Below are positions 21,705 through 28,048 of a stretch of DNA of 64,000 nt, piece after piece. A program made the translations under genes and the position numbers. Positions within the stretch are counted from its first letter, which is position 1, and each line of letters opens with the position of its first letter. The notes under the pieces were generated by a model. It was given only the letters and a program-made list of their open reading frames with translations, was not told where the DNA came from and did no database searches. This DNA comes from Adhaeribacter rhizoryzae (GTDB lineage Bacteria; Bacteroidota; Bacteroidia; Cytophagales; Hymenobacteraceae), in assembly GCF_008629685.1 (NCBI RefSeq), contig NZ_VWSF01000002.1:124001-188000 (forward strand). Reading direction: 5' to 3'.

Positions 21705-22973
21705 TTATAAGATTATACCGGCCGCTAAAGTTTCGTTAGTAAATTCATCTATCAAAATCAGGCTGCCGGTAGCGGCGTTGCGGCGGTAATCATCAAAGAA
21801 CAAAGGCACAGTACTCCGGATTACAATCCGGGCAATATCGTTCAGGCCAATATTCAGGTCGTCTTCAATTTTGTGCAGCGTATTAATATTCATTTTGTAC
21901 CGAATATCTTTTACCAAACATTTGGCTTCGCGGGTGGTATGCCTAATAATATATTTTTTGCCTTTTACCAGCGGCTTTTCGTGCATCCAGCAAATCATGA
22001 GTTCTATATCCTGCGAGGTTTGGGGCTGATTGTTTGGCTTTACAATCATGTCGCCGCGGCTAATATCTATCTCATCATTCAGGGTTATGGTAACCGACAT
22101 GGGCGGAAAAGCTTCTGCTACGGGCCCATCAAAGGTTTCGATAGCGCTGATTTTGCTGGTAAAACCCGATGGCAATACCATTACTTCGTCGCCGGGTTTA
22201 AAAACGCCACCTTCTACGCGGCCGGCATAACCCCGGAAATCGTGGTACTCGGTAGTTTGCGGCCGCGATACATACTGCACCGGGAAACGGGCATCTACCA
22301 GATTAAGATCGCTGCCCAAATGCACGTTTTCTAAGGTGTACAGCAGGGTAGGACCTTCGTACCACGGCATACTTTCGGAGCGGTTTACAATATTATCGCC
22401 CTGCAACGCGCTCACCGGAATGTAGCTTACATCGGCAATATCTAGGCGTGAAATAAACGTTTCGAAATCGGCTTTAATCTTGTTAAATACTTCTTCGCTG
22501 AAGCCCACCAGGTCCATTTTGTTTACGCACAAAATAATATGGTCTATTTTCAGGAGCGACGCAATAAAAGTATGGCGGCAGGTTTGTTCGATTACTCCTT
22601 TGCGGGCATCTACCAGCACAATAGCCAGGTTAGCCGTAGAAGCCCCGGTTACCATGTTGCGGGTGTACTGGATGTGGCCCGGCGTATCGGCCATGATAAA
22701 TTTACGGGTAGGGGTGGCAAAATAACGGTAAGCCACATCAATGGTAATGCCCTGCTCACGTTCGGCCCGTAAGCCATCGGTTAACAAAGCCAGGTTTACG
22801 TATTCTTCACCCCGCTGTTGGCTGGTTCTTTCAATATTTTGCAGCTGGTCTTCAAAAATAGTTTTGGTATCGTAGAGTAAACGGCCAATTAAGGTGCTTT
22901 TGCCATCGTCTACGCTGCCGCAGGTGATAAAACGCAATAAATCGGCTTCTCTTTTTTGTTCTTTTATTTCCAT
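21705..22973 (-). CDS. cysN: Sulfate adenylyltransferase GTPase subunit CysN
   Basis: GTPase subunit of ATP sulfurylase, which with CysD makes adenosine phosphosulfate (APS) from sulfate and ATP. G-domain motifs: GSVDDGKSTLIGRLLYD (P-loop), DTPGHIQYTRNM (G3), and NKMDLV (G4), followed by two EF-Tu-like beta barrels. The start is taken at the ATG at 22973 (MEIKEQKREADLL), because the extra 16 residues of the longer frame are encoded by a low-complexity intergenic repeat. About 422 residues, with no CysC fusion; APS kinase is a separate gene upstream in the operon. Confidence 0.95.
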   Translation of the reverse strand: MEIKEQKREADLLRFITCGSVDDGKSTLIGRLLYDTKTIFEDQLQNIERTSQQRGEEYVNLALLTDGLRAEREQGITIDVAYRYFATPTRKFIMADTPGHIQYTRNMVTGASTANLAIVLVDARKGVIEQTCRHTFIASLLKIDHIILCVNKMDLVGFSEEVFNKIKADFETFISRLDIADVSYIPVSALQGDNIVNRSESMPWYEGPTLLYTLENVHLGSDLNLVDARFPVQYVSRPQTTEYHDFRGYAGRVEGGVFKPGDEVMVLPSGFTSKISAIETFDGPVAEAFPPMSVTITLNDEIDISRGDMIVKPNNQPQTSQDIELMICWMHEKPLVKGKKYIIRHTTREAKCLVKDIRYKMNINTLHKIEDDLNIGLNDIARIVIRSTVPLFFDDYRRNAATGSLILIDEFTNETLAAGIIL

Positions 22974-23016
22974 TATATTTTGGTTGCTGATTGCTGGTTG
23001 TTGATTGTAATTATTT

Positions 23017-23070
23017 AACAATCAATTAGCTAACAATTCAACAATTAACAATTCAACAATTTAACAATTA
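23017..23070. repeat. AACAATT-type simple tandem repeat
   Basis: Between cysD and cysN there is a run of degenerate AACAATT units, each separated by one to three bases. It is A+T-rich and low complexity. The irregular unit rules out a CRISPR array. It may modulate spacing or mRNA processing in the operon. Confidence 0.6.
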
Positions 23071-23976
23071 AAAATATCCCTGTTTTTTCCGGTCTTCCAT
23101 AGCCGCTTCGGAGCGTTGGTCGTCGGCGCGGGCGGCACGTTCGGTTACGCGGGCGGCGGCTACTTCGGCAATAATATCTTCCAGATTACTGGCCGGCGAT
23201 TCTACGGCGCCAGTACAACTCATGTCGCCTACGGTCCGGAAACGAATGGTTTTTTCTTCGTATTGCTCGCCTTTGAGTAAGGTAATAAATTCGGATTTAG
23301 CTAATAAAACACCCTGGCGGTTGACAATTTCGCGCTGGTGCGAGAAGTAAATAGAAGGTAGTTCCAGTTCTTCTTCGGCAATATATTGCCAGATATCCAA
23401 CTCGGTCCAGTTACTCAGCGGAAACACCCGGAAGTGTTCGCCGGGATTTTTGCGGCCGTTGTACAAATGCCACAATTCGGGGCGCTGGTTTTTAGGGTCC
23501 CATTGGCTAAATTCATCGCGGTGCGAGAAGAAACGTTCTTTGGCGCGGGCCTTTTCTTCGTCGCGGCGGGCACCGCCAAACGCCACATCAAACTTAAATT
23601 CTTCGATAGCGCTTAGCAGGGTTACGGTTTGCAAACCATTACGGCTCGGGTTCGGGCCTTTCTCTTCTTCGGCTAAACCCTGGTCGATAGAATCCTGTAC
23701 GGTGCGCACAATTAAGCGGGCCCCAATTTTATTTACCAGATAATCGCGGAACTCGATGGTTTCGGGGAAATTATGGCCGGTATCTACGTGCAACATGGGG
23801 AAAGGCAATTTAGCCGGCCAGAAAGCCTTACGGGCCAAATGCGCCATTACAATAGAGTCTTTACCACCCGAAAATAAAAGAACTGGTTTTTCGAACTGGG
23901 CCACCGCTTCCCGCATAATGTAAATAGATTCGGCTTCCAGTTGCTTTAAATAACTTAATTTATAAGAATAAGACAT
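23068..23976 (-). CDS. cysD: Sulfate adenylyltransferase subunit CysD
   Basis: A 302-residue ATP-PPi-type adenylyltransferase, the catalytic partner of CysN in APS synthesis. The PP-loop is LLFSGGKDSIVMAHLA, followed by HVDTGHNFPETIEFRD and the ARRDEEKARAKER segment typical of CysD. The C-terminal MSCTGAVES stretch is also family-typical. It lies between cysC and cysN on the minus strand in one operon, 105 bases before cysC in map order. Confidence 0.97.
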   Translation of the reverse strand: MSYSYKLSYLKQLEAESIYIMREAVAQFEKPVLLFSGGKDSIVMAHLARKAFWPAKLPFPMLHVDTGHNFPETIEFRDYLVNKIGARLIVRTVQDSIDQGLAEEEKGPNPSRNGLQTVTLLSAIEEFKFDVAFGGARRDEEKARAKERFFSHRDEFSQWDPKNQRPELWHLYNGRKNPGEHFRVFPLSNWTELDIWQYIAEEELELPSIYFSHQREIVNRQGVLLAKSEFITLLKGEQYEEKTIRFRTVGDMSCTGAVESPASNLEDIIAEVAAARVTERAARADDQRSEAAMEDRKKQGYF

Positions 23977-24081
23977 GTTTGTTTAATCCATTGTCCTAAG
24001 CCCACGGCCCAGGAAAAATTTTATTAAATATTAAACTAAATGATTTTGTATGCCGGAAAGAAAACTCCGGTAAAGCCGGAA

Positions 24082-24687
24082 TTAACAACAATGCGGTTTG
24101 ATCCGGGGCAGCAACATATCCAGTAATTTCTGCAGGCTGGATGAATAATCTTCCAGGTCAGTCCGGATTTCGAGCGCGGGTTGGGTTGGTGCTTCAAAAG
24201 GCGCATCCAGGCCGGTAAAGTTCTTAATTTCGCCGTTTAAAGCTTTTTTGTACAAGCCCTTTACATCCCGTTCGGCACAAACAGCAAAAGGTGCGTTTAT
24301 ATAAACTTCGCAAAAATCGGCTTCGCCAATAATATTGCGGGCCAAATTCCGGATTTCTGCGGTGGGGCTAATGAGCGAGCAAATGGTAACCATACCGGCG
24401 TTTAAAAATAATTTGGCGGTTTCAGCCGAGCGACGAATATTTTCGAGGCGATCGGCTTCGGAAAAGCCCAGATTATTATTAATGCCGCTCCGCAGGTTGT
24501 CGCCGTCCAGTAGTTGGGTTAAAAAGCCTTGGGCGTGCAATTCACGTTCCAGGCCTTTGGCCAACGTGCTTTTGCCGGAACCCGATAAGCCAGCCATCCA
24601 TACCACCACGGCCCGCTGCTTCAGCAACGCTTCCTTATCCTGGCGGGTAAGGGTTTGGTCAAAAATAGGGTAAATATGTTCGGCCAT
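24082..24687 (-). CDS. cysC: Adenylyl-sulfate kinase CysC
   Basis: A 201-residue APS kinase that phosphorylates APS to PAPS. P-loop GLSGSGKSTLAKGLE, substrate motif LDGDNLRSGINNNLGFSEADRLENIRR shortened here, and the lid segment ISPTAEIRNLAR. Phosphate-binding KGLYKKALNGEIKNFTG follows. It is the promoter-proximal gene of the cysC-cysD-cysN operon. Its presence next to an APS-type reductase (CysH) is not strictly needed for sulfate reduction, so PAPS may also serve sulfation. Confidence 0.96.
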   Translation of the reverse strand: MAEHIYPIFDQTLTRQDKEALLKQRAVVVWMAGLSGSGKSTLAKGLERELHAQGFLTQLLDGDNLRSGINNNLGFSEADRLENIRRSAETAKLFLNAGMVTICSLISPTAEIRNLARNIIGEADFCEVYINAPFAVCAERDVKGLYKKALNGEIKNFTGLDAPFEAPTQPALEIRTDLEDYSSSLQKLLDMLLPRIKPHCC

Positions 24688-24819: not shown

Positions 24820-25587
24820 ATGTTCATGGAAATAGACCTGGAAAAACTCTTTCAAATAGCCGTAGATGCCGGCGAAGCCATCCTGGTAGTGTATAATAAT
24901 CCGCAGGAAGCCGGGCTCGTAAAATTAAAAACCGATGAATCGCCGCTGACCTTAGCCGATGAAGCTTCGCACCTGATTATCCAGCAAGGGCTGGAGCAAC
25001 TTACCCCCGAAATTCCAATATTATCGGAAGAAGGCGCCGCTATCCCGTACGAAGAACGCCAAGCCTGGGAATATTTCTGGTGTGTAGACCCGCTGGATGG
25101 CACCAAAGAATTTATTCACCGGAACGGCGAATTTACCGTTAACATTGCCCTTATTCATAAAAATACCCCAGTATTGGGCGTTATTTACGTGCCCGTAACC
25201 GGTGATTTGTATTACGGTGGTCCTGAGAAAGGCAGCTTTAAACGAACAGCCGCCGGCGAAACAAGCAGTTTAAAAGTTCAGGCCGATGCGCCCGAATGGA
25301 TTGCCATTGGCAGCCGCTCCCATGCTTCGCCCGACGAACAAGCCGTTTTAGAAAAATATCCGGTCGTAAAATCTATTTCGGCGGGCAGCTCGCTTAAATT
25401 TTGCTACGTAGCCGAAGGCAAAGCCCATATTTATTACCGCCACGGCCCTACCATGGAGTGGGATACCGCCGCCGGCCAGGCCATTGTAGCGGGCAGCGGC
25501 GGCACCCTAACTATGCCCAACGGCGAACCTTTTTTGTATAATAAACCTTCTTTGCTAAATGGCGGCTTTATTTGTAAAGTAAATTAA
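24820..25587 (+). CDS. cysQ: 3'(2'),5'-bisphosphate nucleotidase CysQ
   Basis: A 255-residue member of the inositol monophosphatase superfamily. Metal-binding motifs: SEEGAAIPYEER, DPLDGTKEFIHRNGEFTVNIAL shortened here, and WDTAAGQAIV near the C-terminus. It hydrolyses PAP, the by-product of PAPS use, to AMP. It is divergent from cysC, matching its role in sulfate assimilation. Two in-frame ATG codons (24820 and 24826) are possible starts. Confidence 0.93.
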   Translation: MFMEIDLEKLFQIAVDAGEAILVVYNNPQEAGLVKLKTDESPLTLADEASHLIIQQGLEQLTPEIPILSEEGAAIPYEERQAWEYFWCVDPLDGTKEFIHRNGEFTVNIALIHKNTPVLGVIYVPVTGDLYYGGPEKGSFKRTAAGETSSLKVQADAPEWIAIGSRSHASPDEQAVLEKYPVVKSISAGSSLKFCYVAEGKAHIYYRHGPTMEWDTAAGQAIVAGSGGTLTMPNGEPFLYNKPSLLNGGFICKVN

Positions 25588-25782: not shown

Positions 25783-25790
25783 TAGCTTTG
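25783..25790 (+). promoter_or_regulatory. -7 promoter element for the Cys leader and rhodanese-cysH unit
   Basis: TAGCTTTG is an exact TAnnTTTG match. It lies 16 bases before the ATG of the leader ORF, which predicts a transcript start near 25797 and a short 5' end. A -33 TTTG is not obvious; the region there is a T tract. Confidence 0.5.
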
Positions 25791-25806
25791 TACTAATAAA
25801 TAACAA

Positions 25807-25905
25807 ATGATACAGACCCAGAACCTTTTGCTTACACCCGTTATGCCCGCAACCTGTTGCTGTTGCATGGCTACGCTGTGTACGGAAGGCTTATGGTTGT
25901 TGTAA
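25807..25905 (+). CDS. Cysteine-rich leader peptide of an attenuator
   Basis: A 32-codon ORF (ATG at 25807, TAA at 25903-25905). Codons 17-20 are four consecutive Cys codons (TGT TGC TGT TGC, 25855-25866) and codon 25 is another Cys. The rest is hydrophobic or neutral and resembles no known protein. It lies between a promoter element and an intrinsic terminator, upstream of rhodanese and cysH. This is the layout of amino-acid attenuation leaders such as trpL or hisL, with Cys codons matching the sulfate-assimilation genes downstream. The peptide itself probably has no function. Translation is inferred, not shown. Confidence 0.75.
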   Translation: MIQTQNLLLTPVMPATCCCCMATLCTEGLWLL

Positions 25906-25965
25906 TATAAAATACTGCCATTTATATAGGAATAGAGCCTCTCCGTATGCGGGGAGGCTTTTTTT
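25884..25965 (+). promoter_or_regulatory. Transcription attenuator: antiterminator and terminator
   Basis: The terminator is a 9-bp stem (25936-25944 with 25951-25959, one G-T pair) followed by seven T. The segment GGAAGGCT at 25884-25891 can instead pair with the terminator's 5' arm AGCCTCTCC (5 bp, one bulged C, 3 bp), which would block the terminator. A ribosome stalled on the Cys codons at 25855-25866 leaves 25884-25891 free, allowing read-through. A ribosome reaching the stop codon at 25903 would cover it, so the terminator forms. The logic is Cys scarcity turning the operon on. Confidence 0.7.
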
Positions 25966-26019
25966 ATGCTTTATTTTAAGCAAAGTGGTGCCTATTATTA
26001 AAAAATTAACTCACAAAAA

Positions 26020-26337
26020 ATGAAAGAAGTTACCGTTCAGGACCTGAAAAAACTGATAGACGAAAAAGCCGATTTCCAACTGATAGATGTGCGTGAGCCG
26101 CACGAATACCAGATTGCCAACCTGCAAGGCGAATTAATTCCGCTGGGTCAGGTAGAAGCCAACGTAGATAAAATTAATCGCGATAAGCAGGTGGTGGTAC
26201 ATTGTAGAAGCGGTGCCCGCAGCGGCAACGCCATTGCAGCCCTGGAAGCCCGGTACGGTTTTACCAATTTATATAATTTAAAAGGTGGTATCCTGGCCTG
26301 GTCCGATGAGATCGACCCATCGGTACCGAAATACTGA
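26020..26337 (+). CDS. Rhodanese-like domain protein
   Basis: A 105-residue single-domain rhodanese. The active-site Cys lies in VVVHCRSGARS, with the usual DVREPHEY motif near the N-terminus. It carries sulfane sulfur as a persulfide. It is the first gene after the Cys attenuator and is followed by cysH, so it likely belongs to sulfur assimilation or trafficking. No signal peptide, so cytosolic. Confidence 0.92.
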   Translation: MKEVTVQDLKKLIDEKADFQLIDVREPHEYQIANLQGELIPLGQVEANVDKINRDKQVVVHCRSGARSGNAIAALEARYGFTNLYNLKGGILAWSDEIDPSVPKY

Positions 26338-26425: not shown

Positions 26426-27103
26426 ATGAATAATTTCGAAACGCTCGTAGCAGAAATTAAGCAGGATTTAGATGCGTACAAAGAACGGGGCTTAAAAATA
26501 TTTGCCTCCTCGTCCCTGCAAACCAACAGTATGCCTTTATTGCATATTCTTAGCCGGGTAGCCCCCGAAACACCGGTTTATTTTCTAAACACCGGCTACC
26601 ATTTCCCCGAAACTTTAAGTTTCCGGAAGCAGGTAACGGATTTGCTGGGGCTTAACATTACCGATTTGTACTCGGCGGTGCCCCGTAACCAACAGCGCGA
26701 TGCCAATGGGCAATTGCTGTTTACCTCTGATCCGGATTACTGCTGCTACTTAAATAAAATTCAGCCATTAGAGCCTATTTTGGCTAGTTTTGATGTGTGG
26801 ATTAGCGGCGTACGCGGCGACCAGAGCAAGGTGCGGGCCCAAATGAAACGCGAAGAAAAAGCACCCAATGGCGTTATCCGCTTTCATCCGATGCTGGGCT
26901 GGTCGAGCAAAATGGTTTACGATTATATCCGGGAGTTTAAATTACCCAAACATCCGCTGGAAGGCGAAGGGTATATGAGCATTGGCTGCGAGCCGTGCAC
27001 CCGTAAAATAGATGTAAATGCCCTGCTCGACGACCGCAGTGGCCGCTGGTTTGGTACCAATAAAACCGAGTGCGGCTTGCATACCCAATTGATTACCAGA
27101 TAA
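26426..27103 (+). CDS. cysH: Assimilatory APS reductase (CysH family, Fe-S-cluster type)
   Basis: A 225-residue PAPS/APS reductase. Sequence features: SSSLQTNSMPLLH PP-like loop, FLNTGYHFPETL, Cys106-Cys107 in DYCCYLNK, Cys188 and Cys191 in GCEPC, and the catalytic Cys216 in the C-terminal TECGLH. The CC plus CxxC set binds a 4Fe-4S cluster in APS-specific reductases, so this enzyme should reduce APS directly to sulfite using thioredoxin. It lies 88 bases after the rhodanese gene and 6 bases before the epimerase gene. The substrate call is from motif knowledge. Confidence 0.93.
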   Translation: MNNFETLVAEIKQDLDAYKERGLKIFASSSLQTNSMPLLHILSRVAPETPVYFLNTGYHFPETLSFRKQVTDLLGLNITDLYSAVPRNQQRDANGQLLFTSDPDYCCYLNKIQPLEPILASFDVWISGVRGDQSKVRAQMKREEKAPNGVIRFHPMLGWSSKMVYDYIREFKLPKHPLEGEGYMSIGCEPCTRKIDVNALLDDRSGRWFGTNKTECGLHTQLITR

Positions 27104-27109
27104 TAATAC

Positions 27110-28048
27110 ATGAAAATATTGATAACGGGCGGTGCCGGCTATATCGGCACCGAACTTACCCACCAACTCCTCCAAAATCCGGAAGTATCTGAAATAATTA
27201 TTTACGATAACCTGAGCCGGAAAAATTACAATCTCTTTCTAGGTCATAATAAATTACCTGATAAGCGCATTAAATTTGTGCTGGGCGATATTCTGGATTC
27301 GTATAAACTGCGCAAGGTTATTGCCGAAGCCGATGTGGTGTACCATTTGGCCGCTAAGGTGCTTACTACTTTCTCTAACGACGACCCGCACTTGTTTGAG
27401 CAGGTAAACCATTGGGGCTCAGCCGAACTAAGTTACGCCCTGGAAAACAGCAAAGTGCAAAAGGTAATTTATTTAAGTTCCACTTCCGTTTACGGTGGCA
27501 CCGAAGAGCAGATAGAAGAAGATACGCCACCGCAGCCGCGCACGTATTACGGCATCTCGAAACACAACGGCGAAAAAATGATTAGCCGCTTATCCGACCG
27601 TATGCAAACCTACATAATCCGGTGCGGCAACGTGTACGGTTATAACCGTAGCCTGCGTTTCGATGCGGTCATTAACAAATTTATGTTCGATGCCCATTTT
27701 ACCAACCGTATTACCATACAAGGCAGCGGATTGCAGCAACGGGCTTTTGTGCACATAGATAAAGTAGGCCGCGATCTGGCAGCTTTGGTAAATATTAACC
27801 TGGCACCGGGCGTGTTTAACTTAGTAGATAAAAATTTAAGTGTAATGGAAGTAGCCAATACCCTTAAGGATGTTTACCCGGAACTGGAAATGCTTTTTAT
27901 CTTGCAAGATCGTAAATCCCGCACCTTGTTTATCAACCCAAATAATAAGCTAAGTGCGCTCTCTGCTTACCCTGCTGTGAGCTTACAAGATGAACTTCAG
28001 GATTTTAGTAAACAATTTACTTTTATTCCCTCCGGATATTACAAATAA
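27110..28048 (+). CDS. NAD-dependent epimerase/dehydratase
   Basis: A 312-residue extended short-chain dehydrogenase. Nucleotide-binding GGAGYIGTEL at the N-terminus, AAKV loop, and catalytic YYGISKHNGEK. It acts on nucleotide-sugar or related substrates. It begins 6 bases after the cysH stop codon, so it is probably co-transcribed; a sulfur-linked role (for example sulfosugar or sulfolipid synthesis) is only a guess. No terminator was seen immediately after it. Confidence 0.85.
   Translation: MKILITGGAGYIGTELTHQLLQNPEVSEIIIYDNLSRKNYNLFLGHNKLPDKRIKFVLGDILDSYKLRKVIAEADVVYHLAAKVLTTFSNDDPHLFEQVNHWGSAELSYALENSKVQKVIYLSSTSVYGGTEEQIEEDTPPQPRTYYGISKHNGEKMISRLSDRMQTYIIRCGNVYGYNRSLRFDAVINKFMFDAHFTNRITIQGSGLQQRAFVHIDKVGRDLAALVNINLAPGVFNLVDKNLSVMEVANTLKDVYPELEMLFILQDRKSRTLFINPNNKLSALSAYPAVSLQDELQDFSKQFTFIPSGYYK

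Follow-up and report, generated by a model that had tools for sequence, protein, structure and literature searches.

The 64,000-nt stretch of contig NZ_VWSF01000002.1 of Adhaeribacter rhizoryzae analysed here (the window) contains a short leader ORF with a run of Cys codons upstream of its rhodanese-cysH genes. We consider it very likely that this element is a ribosome-mediated transcription attenuator sensing charged tRNA-Cys, a reading put forward without expression, ribosome-profiling or transcript-end data. The Cys attenuator that the earlier note had proposed at this site gained support from all 11 units found in the genus and from 64 of 76 cysH-like loci elsewhere in the family, with Cys-dependent read-through remaining an inference. 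The single window element joins a known kind of attenuator; what is new is the family-wide system, in which such leaders also occur in tandem and linked to SAM-I riboswitches.

The leader upstream of rhodanese-cysH

The elements of the leader and the surrounding genes are located in the window as follows.

25783..25790, + strand: −7 promoter box TAGCTTTG (TAnnTTTG), found by reading
25807..25905, + strand: leader peptide ORF of 32 codons, MIQTQNLLLTPVMPATCCCCMATLCTEGLWLL, with ATG at 25807 and stop at 25903
25855..25866, + strand: Cys run TGT TGC TGT TGC, the proposed stall site, found by reading
25879-25881, + strand: fifth Cys codon of the leader ORF, found by reading
25880..25892, + strand: antiterminator arm within the ORF (GTACGGAAGGCTT), similar to the terminator 3′ arm, from energy and folding
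25935..25948, + strand: terminator 5′ arm, the partner common to antiterminator and terminator, from energy and folding
25935..25965, + strand: intrinsic terminator GAGCCTCTCCGTATGCGGGGAGGCTT, hairpin 25935-25960 and T tract to 25965
26020..26337, + strand: rhodanese-domain gene (105 aa, profile match below cut-off), the first gene under the proposed control
26426..27103, + strand: cysH, phosphoadenylyl-sulfate reductase (NCBIfam NF002537, above cut-off)
27110..28048, + strand: NAD-dependent epimerase/dehydratase gene, 6 bases past cysH
24820..25587, + strand: cysQ of the sulfur cluster, lying 5′ of the attenuator and not part of it
21705..24687, − strand: cysC, cysD and cysN, sulfate-activation genes of this cluster, divergently oriented

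The ORF, its Cys run, the terminator, the alternative helix and the spacing between them were obtained by direct reading and computation. Reading of the window confirmed the 32-codon ORF with four consecutive Cys codons and a fifth Cys that had been described before, together with a −7 element 16 nt before the ATG at 25807. This box fits TAnnTTTG, which we take to be the Bacteroidota-type −7 consensus, and the same motif was seen by eye 5′ of the leaders in genomes G001 and G002 and of the first leaders in G003, G004, G005 and G007. Its promoter activity and a transcript start near 25797 are inferred, not shown; a σ70 promoter scan, whose reach does not include the Bacteroidota −7 type, found no promoter on the + strand. 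Among the 301 ATG-started + strand ORFs of 8–60 aa in the window, the leader alone contained CCC, and one of the 281 − strand ORFs of the same size class did so. The pattern TGYTGYTGYTGY occurred at 97 places in the window's genome compared to 24 for the reversed control, most of the 97 places being left uninspected.

The terminator, which the earlier note had placed at 25936-25965, was recovered at 25935-25965 with −18.9 kcal/mol in an energy search and again in a separate terminator scan, which returned 2 terminator-like sites against a shuffle mean of 0.7. The alternative pairing with the terminator 5′ arm also exists, but the segment assigned to it previously, 25884-25891, proved too short: the helix joins 25880-25892 to 25935-25948 by 13 pairs with one bulged C at −18.7 kcal/mol, making it approximately equal in strength to the terminator. 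Only one of 500 shuffles of the ORF part paired as strongly with the terminator 5′ arm. An Rfam search over the window gave no matches at the gathering score, and a known Rfam cis-regulatory element was rejected on that account; the possibility that cysH in the window has a SAM riboswitch of its own was likewise rejected, none being found there.

In the proposed mechanism, RNA polymerase would start near 25797 and a ribosome would translate the 32-codon leader. With ample Cys-tRNA, the ribosome is predicted to reach the stop at 25903 and cover 25880-25892, which would let the terminator at 25935-25965 form ahead of the rhodanese-cysH genes. A shortage of Cys-tRNA would hold the ribosome at 25855-25866 and leave 25880-25892 free to pair with the terminator 5′ arm once that is made, with polymerase reading through into the operon. 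Translation of the leader, the stalling and the change of read-through with charged tRNA are all inferences at this point.

The regulating amino acid matches the pathway, which is represented by cysH and the rhodanese gene in the window and by an operon headed by a PALP (CysM-like) gene in relatives. The best matches of the window rhodanese were the C-terminal rhodanese parts of MoeB/MoeZ models, below their cut-offs, and relatives encode a full ThiF-rhodanese protein at this position, so that the gene in the window appears to be a remnant, shortened to one domain and standing as a separate gene. The epimerase/dehydratase gene is probably co-transcribed with cysH, as inferred from its position. 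It is sugar-nucleotide epimerase-like, and a similar gene comes after cysH in two relatives, L002 and L005. Scanning of four other cysK-like genes of the window's genome (L099-L102, two of them read) revealed no convincing Cys leader.

Proposed attenuator units across Adhaeribacter and their folding

Cys leader units were found in all seven testable genomes of Adhaeribacter, a genus that the NCBI taxonomy places in the Hymenobacteraceae, for a total of 11 units; an eighth genome (G006) was left out, its contig ending at the locus. Every unit combined a run of 3–5 Cys codons, a terminator with a T tract and an antiterminator. The absence of a Cys-codon ORF or terminator at homologous loci, which would have refuted the proposal, was thus not observed in the genus. 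Peptides homologous to the window leader were found in Adhaeribacter aerolatus (L252) and, in diverged form, in A. aquaticus (L254); across the genus the peptide sequences vary but the Cys run is retained. The ORF arm mimics the terminator 3′ arm, as exemplified in unit G003a by CGGAAAGGTTT in the ORF and GGAAAGGTTT in the terminator, and when the ORF parts of the units were shuffled, 0–18 of 500 sequences reached the observed antiterminator energy.

The strong terminator with its matched antiterminator, present in 11 of 11 Adhaeribacter cysH/cysM units, makes a mainly translational or Rho-dependent action of the leader, in place of the intrinsic terminator, very unlikely. Such an output has been proposed for the Cys-run leaders of mycobacteria, which also lack terminators (PMC1262725), and it would suit other leaders described below, where 17 of 20 riboswitch-linked leaders and all four Rufibacter-like loci scanned had no intrinsic terminator.

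In four genomes (G003, G004, G005 and G007), two units stand in tandem, each with its own terminator.

L033, 727-990, + strand: tandem Cys attenuators
L035, 715-978, + strand: tandem Cys attenuators
L036, 659-920, + strand: tandem Cys attenuators
L034, − strand: tandem Cys attenuators

These tandem units precede an operon encoding PALP (CysM-like), a JAB protease, a ThiS-like carrier, MoeB-rhodanese and CysH, which was assigned by Pfam in G003 and by identical protein starts in the other three genomes. In its composition it is reminiscent of the mycobacterial pathway that makes cysteine by way of a sulfur carrier.

The arrangement of the units also bears on a rival explanation, in which the short ORF is a chance frame and the hairpin merely the 3′ terminator of cysQ. 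The terminator does lie downstream of cysQ on the same strand, and the first unit begins 85–224 nt past the end of a cysQ-like frame in all seven Adhaeribacter genomes. However, the window hairpin is about 350 nt from cysQ, with the promoter-like box and the ORF in between; the ORF, the Cys run and the antiterminator are kept in 7/7 genomes; and the second complete unit past the first terminator in four genomes is not explained by a simple cysQ terminator. A chance ORF was rejected by the CCC count in the window and by the sense, antisense and shuffle tests in the family, and we regard the explanation as a whole as highly improbable.

For the attenuator reading, we modelled the ribosome by removing the RNA as far as 13 nt from the A-site codon's first base and folding the remainder. 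When the A site was placed on the run's first Cys codon, 8–13 antiterminator pairs remained in all 11 units; when it was placed 3–6 codons beyond the run, none remained, again in 11/11. The window's antiterminator went from 12.9 pairs at codon 20, the final Cys codon of the run, to 0.1 at codon 25, and had 0 at codon 26. A mutually exclusive antiterminator that is free at the codon run and masked at the stop was therefore present in each of the 11 units, by computation only.

Further folds partly support and partly qualify the model. For the window RNA that a ribosome on the first Cys codon would leave exposed, starting at 25868, the minimum free energy (MFE) fold up to the end of the terminator 5′ arm was the antiterminator with a z score of −1.2, indicating that this fold was not unusually stable for its composition; extended to the end of the T tract, the RNA still had the antiterminator as its MFE fold, with z of −3.7. 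Equilibrium folds of the full leaders gave a dominant terminator at all Cys positions in G002 and G004a and partly in others, and in the window the equilibrium number of terminator pairs with the A site on Cys codons 1–4 was 0.0, 3.2, 7.5 and 10.7 of 10.9. Because equilibrium folds favoured the terminator in some of the stalled states, the switch must be kinetic, with the order of synthesis being important, a trait it would share with the classical attenuators. In the ribosome-free window leader, the antiterminator had 10.1 pairs before the terminator 3′ arm was made, suggesting that the state without translation is not clearly off. With regard to a protecting 1:2 hairpin in untranslated RNA, an MFE fold pairs an upstream segment with the antiterminator arm, yet the other folding gave those 10.1 antiterminator pairs.

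In an alignment of 7 units, 91.8% of the cells of the antiterminator helix were paired, compared to 23.7–61.9% when the helix was slid, and none of 500 shuffles matched this value. Only two pairs changed on both sides, a number reached by 328 of 500 shuffles, and the helix slid by −2 had an equal covariation score; the analysis was limited to 7 sequences with the helix defined on one of them. The terminator helix showed no covariation in the Adhaeribacter alignment.

In a separate observation on seven Adhaeribacter leaders (alignment A1), GTTGCTGTTG inside the Cys run was invariant, synonymous positions included, which suggests selection at the codon or nucleotide level.

That the sensor is the Cys-rich peptide itself, with nascent or released poly-Cys binding metal or reacting with thiol oxidants and thereby altering translation or termination, is scarcely credible: Cys are the only clearly conserved residues, four in a row could bind metal, and Cys conservation is predicted by the peptide and codon readings alike, but leaders differ widely in how long the run is, where it lies and which residues surround it, and in 11/11 Adhaeribacter units the run is placed where codon stalling fits the antiterminator.

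Poly-Cys leaders in other Hymenobacteraceae and SAM-I riboswitches

A Cys-rich short ORF was present upstream of 64 of 76 cysH-like loci from four other genera of the family, compared to 8 of 76 on the antisense strand and 22 of 380 shuffles, when we allowed an ATG, GTG or TTG start and required three or more Cys among the final 16 codons, within 560 nt upstream. A stricter test for ATG and CCC at the same loci gave 50 sense hits, 1 antisense hit and 3 hits in 380 shuffles. The loci came from 75 of 139 genomes outside the genus with a cysH-like match, mainly the best-ranked ones. Twelve of the 76 had no leader by the test used; L042 and L158 among them were positive in a set picked by riboswitch position (see below). 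Three of the genome groups, g3, g5 and g4, are presumably Hymenobacter, Pontibacter and Rufibacter, respectively. Leader peptides such as MVYSSYIKRMRFCCCSSCCCCC, MQTTVHNTSLSFSGSYSAATAPAYPIAACCCCCCCCTLC and MASLVCMTGACCCC are unrelated between genera except for Cys, as codon sensing predicts. Leaders outside the Adhaeribacter cysH units mostly had no intrinsic terminator that could be recognised (none at the 4 loci scanned among 14 Rufibacter-like ones), indicating that the output step must differ there.

The search of homologous cysH loci across Cytophagales that the earlier note had suggested was thus positive within the genus and the family, and it did not extend to the order. Order and class samples of 75 loci (28 + 20 + 27) yielded one clear case, in another family (G256, L095), and free CCC ORFs were not enriched at 77 named CysH loci outside Adhaeribacter (2 sense, 3 antisense). 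A feature general to Cytophagales or Bacteroidia was rejected on the lack of enrichment in these samples. Leaders far up long operons could have been missed, the upstream reach being 1.5–5 kb. Possible non-ATG Cys-cluster ORFs were observed before cysH at L051 (about 1269-1358) and L053 (about 1283-1378), which belong to a different family of the order, and by eye neither showed a clear terminator.

A SAM-I riboswitch (Rfam RF00162) was located directly 5′ of the leader in 20 of 40 loci examined. The window's genome (G000) contains two SAM-I riboswitches, one before a metY-like gene and the other before a metH-like gene. The former (C45:257093-257194, − strand; L170/L232) is followed 9 nt on by the 40-codon leader MKKTTFTALLFAAPESGGRFTSVLNIFGSGYCCCCCSLSS, which has five consecutive Cys codons; at the metH-like locus (L171), no Cys leader was found. 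The window's genome thereby carries the terminator form at cysH and a riboswitch-gated form at the metY-like gene.

Across 68 S-boxes, a Cys-rich ORF starting 8–12 nt past the aptamer was observed before metY-like (15/15), permease (5/5) and ATP-grasp-like (3/3) genes; such an ORF at that spacing was also seen before cysH (20/20) and other genes (4/5), and was absent before metH (0/14), hom (0/3) and metB/Z-like genes (0/3). The 20 cysH loci had been chosen largely for leaders already seen. The remaining 48 rows were not a full census, consisting of 30 loci (one per genome), 2 more, and 16 of 20 places after 4 repeats were dropped; L191, counted under other genes, is itself a cysH locus. The labels metY, metH, hom, metB/Z and ATP-grasp were assigned from short motifs that we assume to be diagnostic, and one permease (L179) was checked with Pfam. 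In other families of the class, 30 S-boxes taken as controls gave no Cys-rich ORF past the aptamer; these controls include few comparable genes, one of them, metY-like by eye (L227), without a Cys leader. When cysH loci were picked by riboswitch position, a leader was present in 15/15 at 9–13 nt, with a GTG start in 12; five of the 15 belong also to the 20-locus set, and at least one further candidate (G153) was left out.

Taken together, a two-input SAM/Cys gate in Hymenobacteraceae, with the SAM-I riboswitch wired to a poly-Cys leader, bound SAM blocking leader translation and the run reading Cys-tRNA, is to us the likelier interpretation, held with clear reservation. The blocking by bound SAM is deduced from the end of the aptamer 8–13 nt before the leader start codon. 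Only 3 of 20 riboswitch-linked leaders had an intrinsic terminator (8 of the 20 being from Adhaeribacter itself), and whether the Cys signal reaches the main gene via Rho, coupling or reinitiation remains open. The family appears to combine one Cys sensor with three outputs: a single terminator, terminators in tandem, or a leader gated by a riboswitch and in most cases lacking a terminator.

Several further loci were noted in the course of this survey. A riboswitch with a poly-Cys leader precedes an amino-acid permease or ATP-grasp-like gene at L179, L184, L192, L198 and L199 and at L247, L249 and L251; these genes may serve Cys or Met uptake or be otherwise related to sulfur. At L187 and L250 (genome G133), a riboswitch and a Cys-rich leader lie upstream of seemingly secreted proteins (by eye) with no obvious sulfur link. 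The S-box L234 of an A. aquaticus genome has a long ORF at +8, by eye a PLP enzyme of Met metabolism, an arrangement in keeping with a riboswitch that acts on the start of translation.

If true, these findings would provide a clear and testable example of Cys-responsive amino-acid attenuation in Bacteroidota, where translation seldom uses Shine-Dalgarno sites, and would point to how these bacteria could control sulfate reduction. Tandem units could multiply the dynamic range. The relatives form a natural series for one sensor, single, in tandem and behind a SAM riboswitch, in which ideas on how multi-input RNA switches evolve can be tested directly.

Comparison with known systems

Among the matches listed in a search of the open-access literature, there was no Cys attenuator in Bacteroidota and no SAM riboswitch joined to a Cys leader. 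The trp, his and leu leaders of Enterobacteria are the classical amino-acid attenuators. The Adhaeribacter units share with them a short ORF in which the regulating codon is repeated, pairing of part of this ORF with the terminator 5′ arm and an intrinsic terminator, and in the window leader also a stop codon directly past the antiterminator. They differ in that the codon is Cys, the target is sulfate reduction and the host belongs to Bacteroidota, and further in that no clear self-protecting 1:2 hairpin has been demonstrated here and that four relatives carry tandem units.

The papers cited below were accessible in part, and the comparisons hold for those parts. In Rhodobacterales, uORFC-8-2 upstream of cysS has two tandem Cys codons followed by an intrinsic terminator, with read-through proposed on Cys-tRNA shortage (PMC8632094); there the controlled gene is a tRNA synthetase gene of Alphaproteobacteria, whereas four Cys codons precede rhodanese-cysH in the window. 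The cys operons of Mycobacterium and Propionibacterium have leader peptides with Cys runs and no terminators, for which a translational or Rho-dependent output was proposed (PMC1262725). The units described here likewise place a Cys-codon run in a short ORF before cysteine-pathway genes, and unlike those actinobacterial leaders the Adhaeribacter units carry intrinsic terminators. Poly-Cys leaderless ORFs of mycobacteria have been titled cysteine-responsive attenuators (Canestrari 2020, cited in PMC13236596). A 2010 survey stated that leader-peptide systems had earlier been shown, to its authors' knowledge, only in Proteobacteria and Actinobacteria, and added a Firmicutes case of its own (PMC2965389). 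Within Bacteroidota, strong clues for leader-peptide attenuation before amino-acid operons were reported in 2021 for Flavobacterium psychrophilum, which shares the phylum with Adhaeribacter; no Cys case is named in the accessible text of that study (PMC9723704). The closest parallel to the riboswitch-linked leaders is the ppe2 gene of M. tuberculosis, which has a translated leader under riboswitch control (PMC11260477) and, as in Hymenobacteraceae, a riboswitch directly before the translated upstream ORF. In Hymenobacteraceae, by contrast, the ORF behind the SAM-I riboswitch (RF00162) contains a run of Cys codons, through which a second molecule would be sensed.
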